From NCBI GenBank assembly GCA_029238785.1, contig JAQWFN010000073.1, positions 1 to 55,439 on the forward strand: a stretch of 55,439 nt of DNA. The letters are read 5' to 3'. Of this stretch, positions 21,543 to 48,726 are shown one piece after another. The first letter of the stretch is position 1, and each line of letters opens with the position of its first letter. The stretch is from Flavobacteriales bacterium (GTDB taxonomy: Bacteria > Bacteroidota > Bacteroidia > Flavobacteriales_D > Sanyastnellaceae). The notes beneath the pieces were generated by a model, which saw only the letters and a list, made by a program, of their open reading frames with translations, was not told where the DNA came from and made no database searches. The translations under genes and the position numbers were made by a program.

Positions 21543-28737
<7,195 letters not shown>

Positions 28738-40597: not shown

Positions 40598-40752
40598 GTA
40601 ACAAGGGTAACCTTTCCTGATATCGTGCGTAAAGAAGAATGAAAACTGTAGGAAACGACCGAAAGCAGGCGGTTTTTGTTGAAGCTATCAAGAATTGCCT
40701 AATTTCCCTTCTGAAAACAAGGAAACTCGCTTTCTTAAAAAGAACTTACATT

Positions 40753-43700
40753 ATGCGTCATCTAATTTTGACGGTCATCATGGTGTTTTTTGCCACCCTA
40801 ATGGCATTGGGACAGCAGAACTCGGCTCAAACTGAAAAGTTGAAGGCCGAAGCAGACCAATTGTTCGAGGCTGATGCTTTCGCTAAAGCCTACCCATTGT
40901 ACTCACAACTCGTGAGTCTTAATCCTAAAGATGCTGAACTGAACTTCAAGTTTGGGGCCTGTACCATTTACGCAGGAGAACCAAAGGAAACAGCTATTCG
41001 CCACCTGAATTTCGCTATACAAAAGGGATGTGCTGATCCGCGTGTATACTACTACATGGGTAAAGCTCAACACTTGAATTATGAATTCGCTAAAGCAATT
41101 CCTTTCTATAACGACTACCTCAAAAAACGCAATCCAAAAGATAAAAAACGGCTCCCCGCGGAACAATCAATCCAAATGTGTAAGGAGGGAAAACAACTCT
41201 TGACCAATGTGAAAGACATCGTGGTTTTAGAAAAAGTTGGAGCTGATGTAGAAAGCTTTTTCCGGTTTTACAACTTGGAAGAAATAGGTGGAAAGGTACT
41301 CGCTATTCCAGAAGAATTAAGATCCAAAATCGACAAGAAAAAAGAGTATAAAGGTGTGCTGTACAAGAACGGTAATGCCCCAGAGGTTTACTTTTCTAGT
41401 TATGGTGAAGATGAAGAAAATGGCATTGATATTTATCAAGCTTTTCTTCTGGGTGATGGAACTTTCTCTTCCCCGAAACGTCTACCAAATACGATAAACA
41501 CACCTGAAGACGAAGAGTTCGCCTATATGCATCCTGACGGAAAAACATTCTATTTCGCTTCAAAAGGGCACAACTCAATGGGCGGATATGATATTTTTAA
41601 GTCGATGTATAACGGATCTTCTCAAGAATTCTCTCAACCTGAAAACCTCGATTTCGCTATAAACACTCCAGATGACGACCTCTTTTTTGTTACTGATTCT
41701 TTACATCAAACGGCTTATTTCGCATCAGCAAGAAGCAGTAGCCAAGGCGAATTGCATGTTTACAAAGTAATGGTGGACGGTATCCCTGTGCAATTGATGT
41801 TTGTCAAGGGTATATTTGTGAATGAAAACAATCCAAGTAAATCTGGCGCTAAGGTCACTATTGTTGATGAACTGAGCGGAAAGATCATTACGCAAACAAG
41901 CACCAATGATTTTAATGGTGATTATGTGTTATCATTCCCAAGGGCCGGACTCTATCGGCTCTCGCTGCAAGTCATTGGTGAACCCTTGATTCATGAAGGG
42001 GTAATTGAATTGCCCGCATTTGATCATGTTGTTGCTTTGGAACAAGAATTAAAGCTGGTTAACGAAGATGGCCGAGAGAAACTTATTATTAATAATAAAT
42101 TCGATAAAGAGCTTGATGAAGACCTAGCGGCGCTTTCTGCAGAGGTCTTAAGAAGAAAAGCTGGTCTAGAAGTGAATGCAACAGAAGAGCTAATCGCGCA
42201 AGCAAAAGAAATTGCTAATCCGAAAAGAGATATTTCCGAAGCACATCTATTAGCCGGTTTAAATGTTGAGCAAACTGCGGATGTGGTGAAATCAGAAATG
42301 TTGACCGAAAGCAATGAGTTAAAGGTTCAAGCTAAAAAGCATCAACAAAGAGCTGCAGTTGCAATTAATGAAGCAAAAAGCGAAAATGCCAAAGCAGAAC
42401 AAAAACTCGCTAAAGCTGCTGAACTTTACACCAGCTTTGAAAACCTAGAAGGTGAAGCTTATTATGATACCTTCGATGAGTACAGCGCAATCATTGATGA
42501 AGCAGAACAACTTCAAAACAAAGCAAAAAACCTTATCGCGGTTGCAAATGTGCTCTTGTCTTCTGCAGAGAAATCAAACGCACTTGCTGAGCAACTCGTG
42601 AAAAATACAGCAATAATTGATTCAAGCACTGCAAACGAAGATGTGGATGCCTTGGTGAGCATCCTTCAGCAAGAAAAAGAAAGAAAACGCAGCAAATCTG
42701 ATGTCTTAAAAGAAAGTATAGATGATCTAGCAGCAAGCGCTTCTGAAAAGGAAATTACAGCCAAACAATTCGAAAACCGAAGCCTAGCGCTTCAAGATGA
42801 AGAAAGAAGCATTTCAGCTAAAATCAAAGCAAAACAACAGTCGCTAGAAAGCACAAAAAAGAAAGCTGAAAAGGCTCAATTAGCAGAAGAAATATTCCAA
42901 CTGGAAGGAGAATTAAGCTACGTTCAAGATGAATATGTAAAAGCTCAAAATCAACTCCTTGCGGCTAGTAACGAAAGTATTCGGAACCGCCAACAGTCAT
43001 TGCTTGCACAAAACTTTAAAAATCAAGAACCAGAATCAAATTTGGAAGCAGCTTCTGAATCCGACTTAAAAGCGGTATCAGCGATTATTGGTCAACAAGA
43101 ATTGACCTTAGCAAACATTAAAGTTGATAGAGAAGAAAAAGCCGCTGCTATTGCAGATGGTCCTTTAAAATCTGGTGTTGACCTGGCTACTTTGCCTAGC
43201 GTGATCGCACGAGCAAGCGAAACGGCTCTTGAACTGAAGCCTGTAAAAAACTTGAAAAATGATTACGAAACAGCTCAACTCAAATTTGTTGAGTCTAGTG
43301 TTGGAGTTGAAAGTAAAGAACTTGTTTTAACGAAACAGGCCTTGAGAGAGCTTGAAGAACAAAAAACTTTCTTATCGTCAATTAAATCAGAAAATCCTGA
43401 AGAACAACAGGCCATTGAACTTGAATTAAAAGCTTTAAACGATTTTCAAGAGGAATTGACAACGAGCATTTTTGCCTTAGAGCAGAAAAAGAGCGAAGAG
43501 AAAATGACGCAAAACGAAGCGCTTTCGTTTGTAGAAAATTACCGACCAGAGATTCAAGTTGATTTGAAAACGGCAAATTCACAAGAATTACCCGAATTCA
43601 ACAAGCTTGAAGCAAGCAAACGAGCTAACACAAACATCAATCGGCAAATCAAACTGAATAACGAACTCATCCTGAGTTCAAATGACGAAGCCGAAATAGC

Positions 43701-46700
43701 TCAAATTAACAAGGAAAACCAAGCTCTTGAAATTAGCCGATCGAGTTTAGAGCAAAGCCAAGCACTTAGCCTGAAGGCAGTAAGTATAGATGTTCAGAAT
43801 AGAATCATTCAACTCATGAACGCTGAAAATACTCCAGACGAAAACAACGAAAGACAACTTGATCTACTTCGTGAGTATGGAGCGTTTTTAGCAGATTACG
43901 AGGTCGATAATGAGTCAGAAGCGAAAGATCTGAACGAAATGATTGAAAGAAACAATGCGTCGATTGCTCAACTTGAGAGCATTCAAGCAGAAAATGTTGC
44001 TGTGAACTCATTAAGCGAATCACGTGAAATCACAAGACTTCCAGAAACCGAAGACCTACTTATTGAAGCCATCGACCCTAGTTTCCCTAAGCTTGATTTG
44101 AACGACAATACCAGCATTAATGAGCTCGATGAATCAAGCCTAATGTCCCGAATAAATGAACATGAAAACTTAGTGTTCAAAGCTCAAGAGGCAATGGACG
44201 AACGTGTTTTCGCCCTGGATTCAAGCAATTCTAGTGATGAAAAGGAACGCTTGCAATTGGAAATTACTCGACTCCAATCTTTGATAAATAGAAAATCACA
44301 AGAGCAGCTCAAGCTCATCAGCGCTTTGGATAAATTGAACGAAGCTTCAAACTTAGCCAATAATGGTGTACTTGATGTAAATGAGGCTGAGGAATCACCG
44401 CAGTCTGTTGAAGTTAATGCATCAAGCACTTCCAGCCCAGAAGTTCAAATTGAGAATTGGAATGACTTAGAGCAAGAAGAACAGTTTAACCTGGCCTTTG
44501 AAGCACTTCATCCTAAAAGTACTCCAGTAGAAAAAACGGTTCTAGAGCACGCGCAGTTTGAAACCGTAAGTGCTGCAATTACTGCTGCTCAATTTGAACG
44601 TGATATTGAAGAAATCGAACTGAAATCACTCGAAATTGCAGAACTAGAAGCACAAATTGTTCAATTGGAAAAACGCAGCGAAGTTAAGAAGGTAGACAAA
44701 CAAATTGAGAAAGCCTTTTTTGACAGAAGTGCAGCTGAAATAAGAACAGCTGAAGCGCTGATTGCTGTTTCAACAGAAGAATTTGCCTCAAGAGAAATCG
44801 AAATTGCTAAGATCAAGAACGAGAAGAAAGCTGGTTTAGACTCGCTAGTATGGTTAGCGCAAGAAATACGTCTGAAAGAAAGAAAGGCAGAAGAGAAGCA
44901 ACGGCTAGCTCGAGAAATCCTTGCTGAAGCAGCTCCAGAAATCGATGAAATCAAACAAGCAGACATGTATAAAAGAGCTGCTGTTCTCCAAATGGATGCA
45001 CTCAATGAACAGGGGCAAATAATTAATCTTCTGAACAATACGGAAAGTGTACTAAGCTTGAATGAAGAGCAAATCGCACAATTACAATCGGGAGAGCGAA
45101 ATGACGATAATTCGCTACTAGCAGAAAATGAAGCAACACCTGATGTAGTCAATAATGAAGGTCTTGAGTCAGAAAGCAGTACAACAAACCTTGAAAAGGA
45201 AGCTGAACTTAGCACTGATTCAAATGAAGCAGTTAACGAAACGCTTTCGGCGGAAGAAGAAGAAATTTTAAAAAGAGTTTTAGCTGAAGTAAATTCAAGC
45301 TTCCCAAACATTGAAATTTTTGCCGAAGAACTTGAGCTTACTAGTCCAGAAGAAGCAGCTCTAGCTCTTGACTTAAATGAAACAGAACTTGAAATCATTA
45401 AGTCGAGTGAGGCCTTTGAAGAACTTATTAGCATAAATGAAGCACAAATTGAAAGTCAAAAAGAGCGCGTGCGCATGATCAATGAAAGAAATGAGATGCT
45501 TTCAAATGTGAGTGCTTTAAAAGAAGGAATGGTGCGCTTGAAACAAGCTTCTTTGATGAGTGAAAGTGATGCTGAAAAGGTGGGCTTGGAGGCTGAATAT
45601 GAACAACTGAGCCAACAAGCTAAGGTGAACTATGAGGAAATTGCTAAGATGGATGAAAACATTGCAATTTTAAGTGCTGAAATAAAAGAGAAGGAGGAGG
45701 CCAAAGCTACATACATCTTTAACTTAGATGCGGCAGAGATCATCGCCGAAGCTGAAGAAAAATCAGCAAATGATAGAGCAGGTATTGCTTTAATAGAAAA
45801 TGAAAGCCCTCGTGAATTGGCCGTTTCTAACACTGCTGCAAATCCTGCATCCAGTTTCTATTTCGCCAATAATAATCGTTTTGAGGAGTATGACTTTAAT
45901 TTTCCAAAGGTCTTAGAAGCGGAGGTATTTAATATTGTAGACAAAACACCTTATTCAGAAGAGCAGCCCATACCAGTTGATGTAGCATTACCAGAAGGAA
46001 TCGTTTATAAAGTTCAAGTAGGGGCATTCAGAACTCAAATTCCTCAAAACCTTTATTCACAATTCGCACCTGTATCAGGTGAAAAGACAGGGACAGGACT
46101 TACGCGCTACGCCGTTGGTTTATTTAAGGCCTTTACTTCTGCTGACCTGGCAAAGAAAGAGGTGAGAAGCATGGGCTATTCAGACGCCTTTGTTGTAGCT
46201 TATAAAGATGGTGTGAGAATTCCGCTTTACGAGGCACGAGAAGCAAGTCAGGCCAATGGAGTGGAAGAACTAGCAAATAGATCATCAAACAACAATAATG
46301 ATGTCGCTCGAAGTGAAACAAACACTCAAAGTGCAGAAACAAACATAACTTCAGGTGAATTAAATGCCACTCCAGCGGAGACTTTAGCTACAAATACTGA
46401 AATTTCTCCTGCTATTCCAGGTGAAATGGATTGGAGTCGATCAAACGGAAGTTTTTATACTGTGCAGGTAGGGGTGTATTCAAAACTAATCGACCAAAAT
46501 CAATTGCCAGGAGTTAATTCGGTAATGATTGATAGAGTGAATAATAAGCTCTTTAGATATACATCTGGTCAATTCAATAGCCTACAAGATGCTCAAGCAG
46601 CAAAAGATCGAATTCGTGCTGCTGGAATTGCAGACGCCTTCATTACAGCATATCAAAATGGCAAAAAGGTAGCTGTTTCTAGCATGAGCCCCTCGCTGGT

Positions 46701-46992
46701 GTCAGAAGAACCTAGCCCAGAACAAGAAACAAATGTGGAGGATATTATCACCTATCAAGTGGTATTCGGAACCTTTATCAACGAAGTTCCATCAAACATC
46801 GCTCGCGCCATGTTGAGTCTTGAACGCAAGCATGGCGTAATCCAAAAGTCGAATGGTGAAAGCACAAGCTACCTCTCAAAACCAGTTTCGTCCAAAGCGC
46901 AAGCACAGCAAATTATCGCTTCATATAGAGCTCTTGGGGTTGAATTATCTGTGATTCAGACTTTAACGAATGGTGAACTGGGAGAGCAATGA
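40753..46992 (+). CDS. Giant TPR / PD40 / coiled-coil / triple-SPOR envelope protein
   Basis: The protein has 2079 residues from the ATG at 40753, where a good signal peptide begins (MRHLILTVIMVFFATLMALG); the frame is open 38 codons upstream. Order: TPR repeats (about 20-170), PD40 propeller blades (about 210-342), a carboxypeptidase-D-like beta domain (about 346-421), about 1250 residues of Glu/Ala/Lys-rich coiled coil (about 430-1680), then three SPOR-like domains (about 1750-1825, 1900-1975, 2000-2075) each opening with Y-V-Q-V-G-type strands. The front half resembles PorE-type T9SS proteins, but the usual OmpA domain is replaced by SPOR repeats. Peptidoglycan binding is expected from SPOR; the overall role is unknown. 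Confidence 0.88.
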   Translation: MRHLILTVIMVFFATLMALGQQNSAQTEKLKAEADQLFEADAFAKAYPLYSQLVSLNPKDAELNFKFGACTIYAGEPKETAIRHLNFAIQKGCADPRVYYYMGKAQHLNYEFAKAIPFYNDYLKKRNPKDKKRLPAEQSIQMCKEGKQLLTNVKDIVVLEKVGADVESFFRFYNLEEIGGKVLAIPEELRSKIDKKKEYKGVLYKNGNAPEVYFSSYGEDEENGIDIYQAFLLGDGTFSSPKRLPNTINTPEDEEFAYMHPDGKTFYFASKGHNSMGGYDIFKSMYNGSSQEFSQPENLDFAINTPDDDLFFVTDSLHQTAYFASARSSSQGELHVYKVMVDGIPVQLMFVKGIFVNENNPSKSGAKVTIVDELSGKIITQTSTNDFNGDYVLSFPRAGLYRLSLQVIGEPLIHEGVIELPAFDHVVALEQELKLVNEDGREKLIINNKFDKELDEDLAALSAEVLRRKAGLEVNATEELIAQAKEIANPKRDISEAHLLAGLNVEQTADVVKSEMLTESNELKVQAKKHQQRAAVAINEAKSENAKAEQKLAKAAELYTSFENLEGEAYYDTFDEYSAIIDEAEQLQNKAKNLIAVANVLLSSAEKSNALAEQLVKNTAIIDSSTANEDVDALVSILQQEKERKRSKSDVLKESIDDLAASASEKEITAKQFENRSLALQDEERSISAKIKAKQQSLESTKKKAEKAQLAEEIFQLEGELSYVQDEYVKAQNQLLAASNESIRNRQQSLLAQNFKNQEPESNLEAASESDLKAVSAIIGQQELTLANIKVDREEKAAAIADGPLKSGVDLATLPSVIARASETALELKPVKNLKNDYETAQLKFVESSVGVESKELVLTKQALRELEEQKTFLSSIKSENPEEQQAIELELKALNDFQEELTTSIFALEQKKSEEKMTQNEALSFVENYRPEIQVDLKTANSQELPEFNKLEASKRANTNINRQIKLNNELILSSNDEAEIAQINKENQALEISRSSLEQSQALSLKAVSIDVQNRIIQLMNAENTPDENNERQLDLLREYGAFLADYEVDNESEAKDLNEMIERNNASIAQLESIQAENVAVNSLSESREITRLPETEDLLIEAIDPSFPKLDLNDNTSINELDESSLMSRINEHENLVFKAQEAMDERVFALDSSNSSDEKERLQLEITRLQSLINRKSQEQLKLISALDKLNEASNLANNGVLDVNEAEESPQSVEVNASSTSSPEVQIENWNDLEQEEQFNLAFEALHPKSTPVEKTVLEHAQFETVSAAITAAQFERDIEEIELKSLEIAELEAQIVQLEKRSEVKKVDKQIEKAFFDRSAAEIRTAEALIAVSTEEFASREIEIAKIKNEKKAGLDSLVWLAQEIRLKERKAEEKQRLAREILAEAAPEIDEIKQADMYKRAAVLQMDALNEQGQIINLLNNTESVLSLNEEQIAQLQSGERNDDNSLLAENEATPDVVNNEGLESESSTTNLEKEAELSTDSNEAVNETLSAEEEEILKRVLAEVNSSFPNIEIFAEELELTSPEEAALALDLNETELEIIKSSEAFEELISINEAQIESQKERVRMINERNEMLSNVSALKEGMVRLKQASLMSESDAEKVGLEAEYEQLSQQAKVNYEEIAKMDENIAILSAEIKEKEEAKATYIFNLDAAEIIAEAEEKSANDRAGIALIENESPRELAVSNTAANPASSFYFANNNRFEEYDFNFPKVLEAEVFNIVDKTPYSEEQPIPVDVALPEGIVYKVQVGAFRTQIPQNLYSQFAPVSGEKTGTGLTRYAVGLFKAFTSADLAKKEVRSMGYSDAFVVAYKDGVRIPLYEAREASQANGVEELANRSSNNNNDVARSETNTQSAETNITSGELNATPAETLATNTEISPAIPGEMDWSRSNGSFYTVQVGVYSKLIDQNQLPGVNSVMIDRVNNKLFRYTSGQFNSLQDAQAAKDRIRAAGIADAFITAYQNGKKVAVSSMSPSLVSEEPSPEQETNVEDIITYQVVFGTFINEVPSNIARAMLSLERKHGVIQKSNGESTSYLSKPVSSKAQAQQIIASYRALGVELSVIQTLTNGELGEQ

Positions 46993-47016: not shown

Positions 47017-47047
47017 TTGCATCATTGTTAAGATAATGTGTTCTTTG
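47017..47047 (+). promoter_or_regulatory. Possible promoter of the lamin-tail protein gene
   Basis: TTG (47017-47019), 20 bp, then GTTCTTTG (47040-47047). The last six bases of the -7 box match; the first two do not. Its position inside the longest open frame argues for the downstream TTG start. Confidence 0.35.
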
Positions 47048-47085
47048 TGTTAAGTAAAGAAGTATCTAACCAATCTAATATTCCT

Positions 47086-48726
47086 TTGAAAAAAATTACT
47101 CAATCCTTGCTCATTATTGCAGCGCTCTTTAGCCTAAGTCAATCAGCCCAAGCTCAATTGTATATCAATGAACTAATGGCCAGAAATAGCACGGGAATTA
47201 GTGATGATTTTTTCGAACAAGACGATTGGCTTGAAATCTACAACGCCGGAAGCATTACCAACTTGGCGGGCTATTTTTTGAGTGATGATCCCTTGCTCCT
47301 TACAAAGTGGGAGATTCCAAACACTAACGCGGGCTTAACAACTGTGCTCCCTAACAATCATATCCTCTTTTGGCTTGATAACGATATCACGCAAGGTGAA
47401 GATCACGCAAACTTTAGATTAAGCGGAGACGGAGAGACCATCTTTTTGGTGATGCCAGACGGTGTAACAATTATTGATTCAGTAACTTATCCGGTTCAAG
47501 CTCCAGACATTTCGTACGGTCGCTCTTGCGATGGATGTCCAGACTGGATATTCTTTGACAACAGTACTCCTGACGACAACAATGCGGAAGTGATTCCAAG
47601 CACAGAAACCTTGTTCATTAACGAAGTACTCACAAACAACACCTCAAACATTGTTGATGTCTTTGGAGAACACGAGGCTTGGCTTGAAATTTATAATCCC
47701 AACCCATTTCAAGTTAACTTGGCTCGTTATACATTAGAGGACGTGAATAGCGGAAGCGCTTATACTTTTCCAACGAGCAGCCCAATACTAACTACCATTG
47801 ATGCAGAAGGCTTTATCGTTATTTGGATGGATGGTCAATTCGAACAGGGAGAAGACCACGCTTTTACCATCGACCCTTCTGGAGAATTAAGACTCAAGGG
47901 GGAAGATGAGAGTATTGTTGATACCTACAGCTACCAAGATGCGGGTGAAAACATCAGCTGGGGAAGAAGTACAGATGGAGGTCCCTCAAGCATTTCTTAC
48001 ACCATTCCAACTCCCCGGGTTACCAATACTTTAGTGATTGTTCAGCCAGAATTACTCTATATTAATGAAGTGATGACCACCAATTTGTCAGATACAACCG
48101 ATGTCATGGGGGAATTTGAAGATTGGTTTGAGGTCTATAATCCAGGTCCAAATGCCGTTAATATCGCCGGTTACTATTTCACAGATAATCCTGCAAATCC
48201 AGATAAGTGGCGTGTTCCATTAGATCTGCCGAGCGAAACAACCATTCCAGCAGGAGGTTTTCTGCTTTTTTGGGCTGATGAAGACCAATCTCAAGGATGG
48301 AATCATACGAACTTCCGATTAAATAATGCTGGCGAAAGTTTATCGCTCTATAGTCCGGATGGATTTACGCTGGGCGACTTCATCGCCTTGGGCTTAATTG
48401 GTGATGATTTGACTTACGGAAGAGAAACCGATGGAAGTCCAAACTGGGTGAATTTCCTTGAAACAACACCCGAATATTCCAACAACGGCGCCACTGTGAA
48501 CATTGCGCTTTTACAAGAAGATCAGCTTAAGATGTATCCTAACCCTGTGGCATCTGGTCAAATGGTTAAACTCACGGAAAGCGCTGATATTATTGTCTCC
48601 GAAATGGGAGGGAAGGTTTTAATTCGCGAAAATCAAACACTTGTTATAAATACAGATTCACTTTCTCGAGGACTCTATTTGGTTCAAATCAACCAGAAAT
48701 ACACATTAAAGTTGTTGATAAACTAA
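47086..48726 (+). CDS. Secreted protein with three lamin-tail domains and a T9SS sorting domain
   Basis: The protein has 546 residues from TTG at 47086, which gives a normal signal peptide (KKITQSLLIIAALFSLSQSA). The GTG at 47038 would add 16 polar residues. Three repeats open with LYINELM, LFINEVLT and LYINEVMT (near 24, 178 and 336) and contain W-E-I/V-YN-P plus GRSTDG-type ends, as in lamin-tail (LTD) domains. A short C-terminal T9SS-type domain starts near LKMYPNPVASGQMV. It is a likely cell-surface or released protein; the binding target is unknown. Confidence 0.87.
   Translation: MKKITQSLLIIAALFSLSQSAQAQLYINELMARNSTGISDDFFEQDDWLEIYNAGSITNLAGYFLSDDPLLLTKWEIPNTNAGLTTVLPNNHILFWLDNDITQGEDHANFRLSGDGETIFLVMPDGVTIIDSVTYPVQAPDISYGRSCDGCPDWIFFDNSTPDDNNAEVIPSTETLFINEVLTNNTSNIVDVFGEHEAWLEIYNPNPFQVNLARYTLEDVNSGSAYTFPTSSPILTTIDAEGFIVIWMDGQFEQGEDHAFTIDPSGELRLKGEDESIVDTYSYQDAGENISWGRSTDGGPSSISYTIPTPRVTNTLVIVQPELLYINEVMTTNLSDTTDVMGEFEDWFEVYNPGPNAVNIAGYYFTDNPANPDKWRVPLDLPSETTIPAGGFLLFWADEDQSQGWNHTNFRLNNAGESLSLYSPDGFTLGDFIALGLIGDDLTYGRETDGSPNWVNFLETTPEYSNNGATVNIALLQEDQLKMYPNPVASGQMVKLTESADIIVSEMGGKVLIRENQTLVINTDSLSRGLYLVQINQKYTLKLLIN

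Follow-up and report, generated by a model that had tools for sequence, protein, structure and literature searches.

A conserved family of very large envelope proteins with a PorE-like head and SPOR domains in one Bacteroidota order

How the outer membrane, the cell wall and division are coupled in Bacteroidota is poorly known. Among the described proteins closest to the one reported here, PorE of P. gingivalis has been proposed to anchor the type IX secretion system (T9SS) to the cell wall (PMC7192894), and loss of CHU_0125 in C. hutchinsonii results in sixfold more outer-membrane vesicles (PMC5891637). For the SPOR protein RlpA, Q270 has been described as a highly conserved side chain that contacts both N-acetylmuramic acid and N-acetylglucosamine (PMC6895207). 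Here we analyse a gene for a 2079-residue protein, named the giant below, on contig JAQWFN010000073.1 (GenBank assembly GCA_029238785.1) of a Flavobacteriales bacterium of the family Sanyastnellaceae; the whole stretch of 55,439 nucleotides that was analysed is referred to as the window. The giant combines a head of TPR, propeller and CRD domains with a long, variable middle and a tail of SPOR domains (Table 1), and it belongs to a real and conserved family of very large envelope proteins.

Distribution across the order and the phylum

A profile of the first SPOR domain, SPOR1 (A4), used at a threshold of 1e-25, matched 132 of the 199 genomes of the window's order and 109 of the 149 good genomes, in nine families, each of which has at least one frame over 2000 residues. 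At 1e-15, 152 of the 199 genomes and 118 of the 149 good ones were matched, other SPOR proteins included; because the looser threshold catches such proteins, as in G011 (8.3e-16), where no such head is present, the tally at 1e-25 is preferred. Family profiles can also miss distant relatives: A4 at 1e-15 misses the genera g3 and g5, though their examined members have the giant. Most of the matches at 1e-25 (114 of 132) lie in frames of at least 1000 residues, and the three that were checked among the 18 shorter ones (G101, G361 and G424) all reach a contig end. A search with the full protein gave matches in 61 of 61 genomes of the window's family, PorE-like paralogues included. Given the spread among the good genomes, the possibility of a fusion confined to one genome was rejected.

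After nine duplicate loci had been dropped, 120 distinct homologues were available. Head and SPOR domains are present in one frame in 99 of them; the remaining 21 comprise 16 that are cut by the end of the available sequence and five (L117, L123, L128, L180 and L181) that are not. The 99 proteins are 1148 to 3551 residues long (median 2095) and, when scored with a custom SPOR profile at 10 bits, contain two SPOR-like domains in 43 cases, three in 48, four in 5 and five in 3. The named loci, at least 80, include metagenome-assembled genomes assigned by NCBI to Flavobacteriales, Crocinitomicaceae and Vicingaceae, and the isolate Brumimicrobium salinarum, in which locus L172 carries the head and two SPOR domains in a frame of 2115 residues.

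Samples of the whole phylum were drawn at a completeness of at least 90%. Profile A4 at 1e-8 matched 32 of 247 genomes, and outside the order all matches are in frames of at most 527 residues; the three matches within the order are 2119, 2040 and 743 residues long, the last one reaching a contig end. The head profile A5 at 1e-12, with at most 12 candidates scored per genome, matched 4 of 296 genomes, namely two giants and two proteins of 481 and 775 residues. The long version was not detected elsewhere in the phylum samples by either profile search. The sequence-only reading of this DNA had suggested a new kind of envelope scaffold. The survey for the same domain order revealed a real family in nine families of one Bacteroidota order, and no characterised homologue, of a different function or otherwise, was found in the open-access literature, a scope that lacks most subscription journals.

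Head, middle and tail of the giant

Pfam searches, structure models and hydrophobicity periods confirmed the 2079-residue open reading frame and its TPR, PD40 and CRD-like parts, helix-prone middle and three SPOR folds. The frame is open from an ATG at 40639, has a second in-frame ATG at 40753 and ends with the stop codon at 46992. The signal peptides of the homologues begin at the position equivalent to 40753, which is therefore the better start. A hydrophobic N-terminal stretch is present in all 92 homologues with a full N-terminus, and a lipobox pattern in one of the 92; the lipobox expected of a PorE-family lipoprotein is absent from the window protein.

The AlphaFold model of residues 1 to 530, based on 30 homologues, has a mean pLDDT of 85.9 and a pTM of 0.73. 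Solved TPR domains match residues ~20-150 of this model with Z values of 13-16 (VIA-align), and the TPR matches in Pfam are all under cut-off. The model is all-beta at residues ~349-449, where the CRD family of Pfam scores 0.016, under its cut-off. One PD40 repeat exceeds the Pfam cut-off (6.1e-5, 23.3 bits versus 20.9). Foldseek returned mostly TPR fragments for the head, and searches of the PDB gave only weak TPR matches with the single sequence and none at 0.1 with profile A5. No propeller appeared in the VIA-align list for the head, which is filled by the TPR domain and so is uninformative on this point.

The interval between TPR and CRD comprises ~190 residues, which the DSSP assignment, the sole basis of this reading, divides into three full PD40-like blades plus part of another. 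In PorE the corresponding residues 167-435 (269 residues) are called five-bladed (PMC7192894). The PorE profile pairs residue 212 of the giant with profile position 293, though the TPRs start alike, and a BLAST alignment of the giant with L003, a paralogue in the same genome, is offset by 12 at the TPR and by 94 at the later propeller. Based on these two alignments we conclude that ~80 propeller residues are missing relative to PorE. The propeller of the sequence-only reading is thus present as PD40 sequence, but in a shorter region than that of PorE.

Within residues 210-373, the giant matches the NCBIfam families PorE (NF052230) with 78.2 bits, versus a cut-off of 600, and CHU_0125 (NF053607) with 80.6 bits, versus a cut-off of 620. 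No OmpA domain was matched in the giant by Pfam or NCBIfam at 0.01. Together with the model, these results support front domains in a PorE/CHU_0125-like order, with SPOR instead of OmpA, as had been proposed. The giant was rejected as a PorE orthologue, since its scores are far under cut-off, an OmpA match is lacking and the genome contains other PorE-like proteins. These are L002, matched through OmpA, and L003 and L004, whose matches end before it; all three are under the curated NCBIfam cut-offs. The PorE/CHU_0125-like L003 is 531 residues long.

In the tail, two SPOR domains exceed the Pfam cut-off of 21 (PF05036; SPOR1 23.8 bits, SPOR2 26.5 bits), and SPOR3 has no Pfam match; the profile check thus places both PD40 and SPOR over cut-off, the latter for SPOR1 and SPOR2 only. 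Structure prediction of the termini gave the TPR and all-beta CRD region in the head and, for residues 1691-2079 (33 homologues), three domains with a pLDDT of 81.1. The pTM of the tail model is 0.44, and so it does not fix the relative placement of these domains. The top VIA-align matches to the tail include the SPOR domains of CwlC (1x60, Z 7.6, on SPOR2) and RlpA (6i09, Z 7.4, on SPOR3; 6i05, Z 7.0, on SPOR2) and an exported Burkholderia protein (Z 7.3). FtsN (5.6) and DamX (5.2) rank lower, mixed with unrelated ferredoxin-like folds that start at Z 6.2, and all Z values for SPOR folds are below 8. The tail profile A2 matched the CwlC SPOR structure 1x60 over SPOR1 at 1.4e-5, with an unrelated chain at 0.086; with the single tail sequence CwlC was found at 0.91. 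Foldseek returned ferredoxin-like or ACT-domain folds, and CwlC at an E value of 0.07.

The glutamine equivalent to RlpA Q270 is kept in SPOR1 of 120/120 homologues, in SPOR2 of 114/120 and in SPOR3 of 22/71. This pattern of retention is the reason to regard SPOR1 and SPOR2 as two likely glycan binders and SPOR3 as a degenerate third domain. The three SPOR domains claimed before are therefore found as folds in the model, but only two of them keep the glycan-contacting glutamine, SPOR3 having a valine. The view that the protein is built to hold the cell wall is supported, as far as sequence can tell, by SPOR1 and SPOR2. The ligand should exist in the host, since the window genome encodes an amidase of the Amidase_3 family (173.7 bits), and the SPOR1 profile finds a match at its C-terminus at 7e-15 (Pfam SPOR is under cut-off there). 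Further SPOR-type proteins of this genome are a 743-residue and a 470-residue protein, an HU-CCDC81 protein with SPOR and a 202-residue SPOR protein, so that the host is expected to have denuded glycan as well as several proteins that recognise it. In the 743-residue protein (L183, 3627-5858), inspection by eye suggests a beta barrel in addition to the SPOR-like domains.

The giant might alternatively regulate septal wall remodelling by recruiting amidases or synthases to denuded glycan, in a role like that of EnvC or DamX. The conserved glutamine of SPOR1 and SPOR2 and the amidase with a related SPOR-like end are consistent with such a role; however, this amidase has a SPOR-like end of its own, and Pfam and NCBIfam searches of the giant revealed neither a catalytic nor a LytM family. 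We therefore consider a regulator of this kind improbable.

Between head and tail lies a region that had been described as a coiled coil of ~1250 residues. When hydrophobicity was averaged over 12 aligned sequences, residues 476-1700 showed a peak at period 3.5 (z 5.9), with z 3.9 at periods 3.3 and 3.6 and negative values at 4.0 and 5.0. By part, z at period 3.5 is 7.4 for residues 476-800, 1.7 for 800-1250, which is not significant, and a modest 2.4 for 1250-1700. The window sequence alone has a weaker peak at 3.6 (z 3.4), with z 2.9 at 3.5 and 2.6 at 3.0. Among the 99 homologues, which are related and so not independent tests, period 3.5 scores highest of the ten tested in 52, with a mean z of 2.55 and z > 2 in 48%; at periods other than 3.5 and 3.6 the mean z is between -0.85 and 0.5. 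The middle thus appears helix-prone with real heptads, clear in its first part, and these values do not establish a continuous coiled coil or rod of 1250 residues. A BLAST of residues 456-1720 against themselves gave no off-diagonal match at E 1, that is, no internal repeats.

Comparison with 11 relatives in 100-residue blocks gave mean identities to the window protein of 0.42-0.56 for residues 1-500, 0.10-0.24 for 501-1700, 0.48 for 1701-1800 (SPOR1), 0.37 for SPOR2 and 0.17 for SPOR3. An unconserved middle between conserved ends is typical of a spacer that joins two functional parts. The spacing from head to SPOR1 ranges from 489 to 2426 residues in the 99 homologues. As one straight coiled coil, and with the usual rise per residue, the middle would measure about 180 nm here and about 60-350 nm across these homologues. 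No outer-membrane barrel family was found in the giant by Pfam or NCBIfam, and the structure models cover residues 1-530 and 1691-2079.

In genus g15 of the window's family, the gene has the same P5C-dehydrogenase, lamin-tail domain (LTD) and S1 neighbours as the giant has in the window, and the protein is 680 (G059) or 692 residues long (G043), stop to stop. In the G059 protein the head spans 47-380, three SPOR-like domains follow (433-492, 522-594 and 609-676), and there is no coil; the spacing from head to SPOR is ~50 residues in these two orthologues. In G014 the protein has 486 residues, with the head and one SPOR-like domain, and is perhaps broken; G033 gave no such head match. The g15 loci without coil, of 486-692 residues, are L217 (frame from 5042), L218 and L219. 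The long rod of the sequence-only reading is thus not essential to the design, as the two syntenic orthologues do without it. What stays constant is the head together with SPOR domains, whereas a long middle can be dispensed with.

Larger genomes tend to encode longer giants (Spearman 0.76 over 30 genera, uncorrected for descent); the coefficient is 0.77 in the 16 genera of the window's family and 0.51 (p 0.06) in the 14 others. Two g15 lengths in this test (655 and 665) were estimated from 680 and 692, and the test was restricted to genomes with an uncut copy of the gene. This trend, and a middle equal to about 60-350 nm of straight coiled coil, would suit a lateral periplasmic filament or cytoskeleton-like layer in which neighbouring coils associate along the wall and set cell shape or stiffness. 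Such a layer is unlikely in view of the coil-less g15 orthologues and of a middle that is poorly conserved and uneven in its heptads.

Relation to the T9SS and gene neighbourhood

The PorE-like head had suggested a link to the T9SS, and the PorE profile does match it. Moreover, SprA is present in 196 of the 199 genomes of the order, and the next gene in the window (47038-48726, + strand) encodes lamin-tail domains followed by a T9SS sorting tail typical of cargo. However, SprA is also present in 227 of the 296 genomes of the phylum sample, and of these 227 two have the long protein and one (G101) has a gene cut by the contig end; it was not detected in the other 224, and a general T9SS component was rejected on this basis. 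In addition, G011, G311, G320, G415 and G418, which belong to the order and are SprA-positive, have PorE-like head matches only and no head-coil protein, the window genome has a PorE-like protein with an OmpA domain (L002), and the neighbours identified outside the window's family, PlsY, ClpS, M48 and one without assignment, are not T9SS genes. The T9SS link is thus not specifically supported and a T9SS role for the giant is quite improbable; an accessory role specific to this order may exist.

An LTD protein is encoded within two genes downstream in 18 of the 33 loci of the window's family with at least two downstream genes, a count that depends in part on judgement as to which loci belong to this family (the placement of L117 is uncertain). 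In the other loci, the first two genes downstream include ClpS in 56 of 74 cases and the first three include M48 in 35 of 74; on the upstream side, PlsY is among the first two genes in 26 of 41 cases and a 1000-1500-residue protein among the first three in 28 of 41. PlsY, ClpS and M48 are housekeeping genes whose linkage may be incidental. The 1000-1500-residue neighbour has no Pfam family over cut-off and, in one homologue, no NCBIfam family. Its orthologue in the window lies 14.7 kb upstream of the giant on the same strand; the distance is about 9 kb in G024 and 118 kb in G042. As orthologues of this 1487-residue protein are linked to the giant in f2, f45, f46, f47 and f50, it is a candidate partner. 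A relative with 26% identity occurs in G245, a member of the class without a detected long SPOR protein.

Table 1. Features of the giant and its candidate partner in the window
Feature	Positions	Strand	Basis or remark
Whole gene, 2079 aa	40753..46992	+	start chosen from homologues; 2117 aa if translated from the in-frame ATG upstream at 40639
Sec signal peptide, about aa 1-21, without lipobox Cys	40753..40815	+	by eye and simple counts
TPR domain, aa 25-150	40825..41202	+	AlphaFold model, matched by solved TPR structures at Z 13-16 (VIA-align)
Shortened PD40 propeller region, aa 158-345, 3-4 blades (DSSP reading)	41224..41787	+	Pfam PD40, NCBIfam PorE/CHU_0125 profiles, model
CRD/Ig-like beta domain, aa 349-449	41797..42099	+	model; Pfam CarboxypepD_reg 0.016, under cut-off
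Helix-prone variable middle, aa 476-1700	42178..45852	+	heptads strongest at aa 476-800 (42178-43152)
Conserved PIP-to-PEG stretch directly N-terminal of SPOR1, aa 1739-1749	45967..45999	+	alignment A4
SPOR1, aa 1751-1822, glycan-contacting Gln kept	46003..46218	+	Pfam, profile match to CwlC, Gln count
SPOR2, aa 1901-1972, Gln kept	46453..46668	+	Pfam, VIA-align, Gln count
SPOR3, aa 2001-2075, SPOR fold, Val replaces Gln	46753..46977	+	model and VIA-align; no Pfam match
Candidate partner, 1487 aa, signal peptide by eye, no Pfam family	21543..26006	+	orthologues found next to the giant in five further families

Proposed role and comparison with known systems

We tentatively propose, with slightly less than even confidence, that the giant is a periplasmic scaffold whose head docks a partner while SPOR1 and SPOR2 bind denuded, probably septal, glycan. 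The protein would be soluble and exported by Sec into the periplasm. Its TPR, short propeller and CRD would dock a partner, most likely a protein in, or attached to, the outer membrane, and SPOR1 and SPOR2 would hold the tail on denuded glycan, made by amidases mainly at the division site. The middle would be an adjustable spacer that sets the reach, or a region of self-association; as ~180 nm far exceeds the width of the periplasm, it would run parallel to the envelope or double back on itself instead of spanning it. Both the septal position and the outer-membrane linkage would follow from what is known of SPOR and PorE biology.

Several points weigh against this scaffold. The five order members with only PorE-like head matches are at least 98% complete, and these matches are in frames of at most 781 residues; the gene is dispensable in some lineages. 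The heptads are significant in only part of the middle, the view that septa are the main site of SPOR ligands derives from other phyla, and the evidence on the partner is gene order only. Localisation, wall binding and the effect of deletion are predictions for the giant.

Most sampled members of the order have retained this large protein, in which SPOR domains, whose ligand is known, are joined to a head related to wall-to-membrane scaffolds, and it bears on the coupling of these layers. It is possible, though doubtful, that the giants are an order-specific class of envelope scaffold, with a head for an outer-membrane partner, a freely evolving coiled-coil spacer of ~50-2,400 residues and septal denuded glycan as the anchor; their role would resemble that of Tol-Pal or of lipoprotein tethers, with the long form running along or around the division site. 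Because the spacer forms a natural series from ~50 to ~2,400 residues, its role is directly testable by swapping ends and lengths.

With FtsN, DamX, RlpA and CwlC the giant shares the SPOR fold and, in SPOR1 and SPOR2, the conserved glutamine. We know of no SPOR protein with a TPR/propeller head. SPOR proteins are described as typically having one SPOR domain on a membrane-anchored protein (PMC6895207), whereas the giant has three and is soluble by prediction. SlpA of Deinococcus radiodurans, compared here by description and not by sequence, resembles the giant in its long coiled coil (predicted in the giant) and as a connector of wall and outer envelope (proposed for the giant); SlpA differs in its SLH domains and solved trimeric structure and is described as having its own outer-membrane barrel (PMC9388160), a feature for which Pfam and NCBIfam gave no family in the giant. 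PorE, CHU_0125 and the giant are alike in the order of their front domains, in export and in a wall-binding end (putative in the giant). The giant differs from both in that it lacks a lipobox, has a propeller ~80 residues shorter, and carries a variable middle and SPOR domains in place of OmpA.

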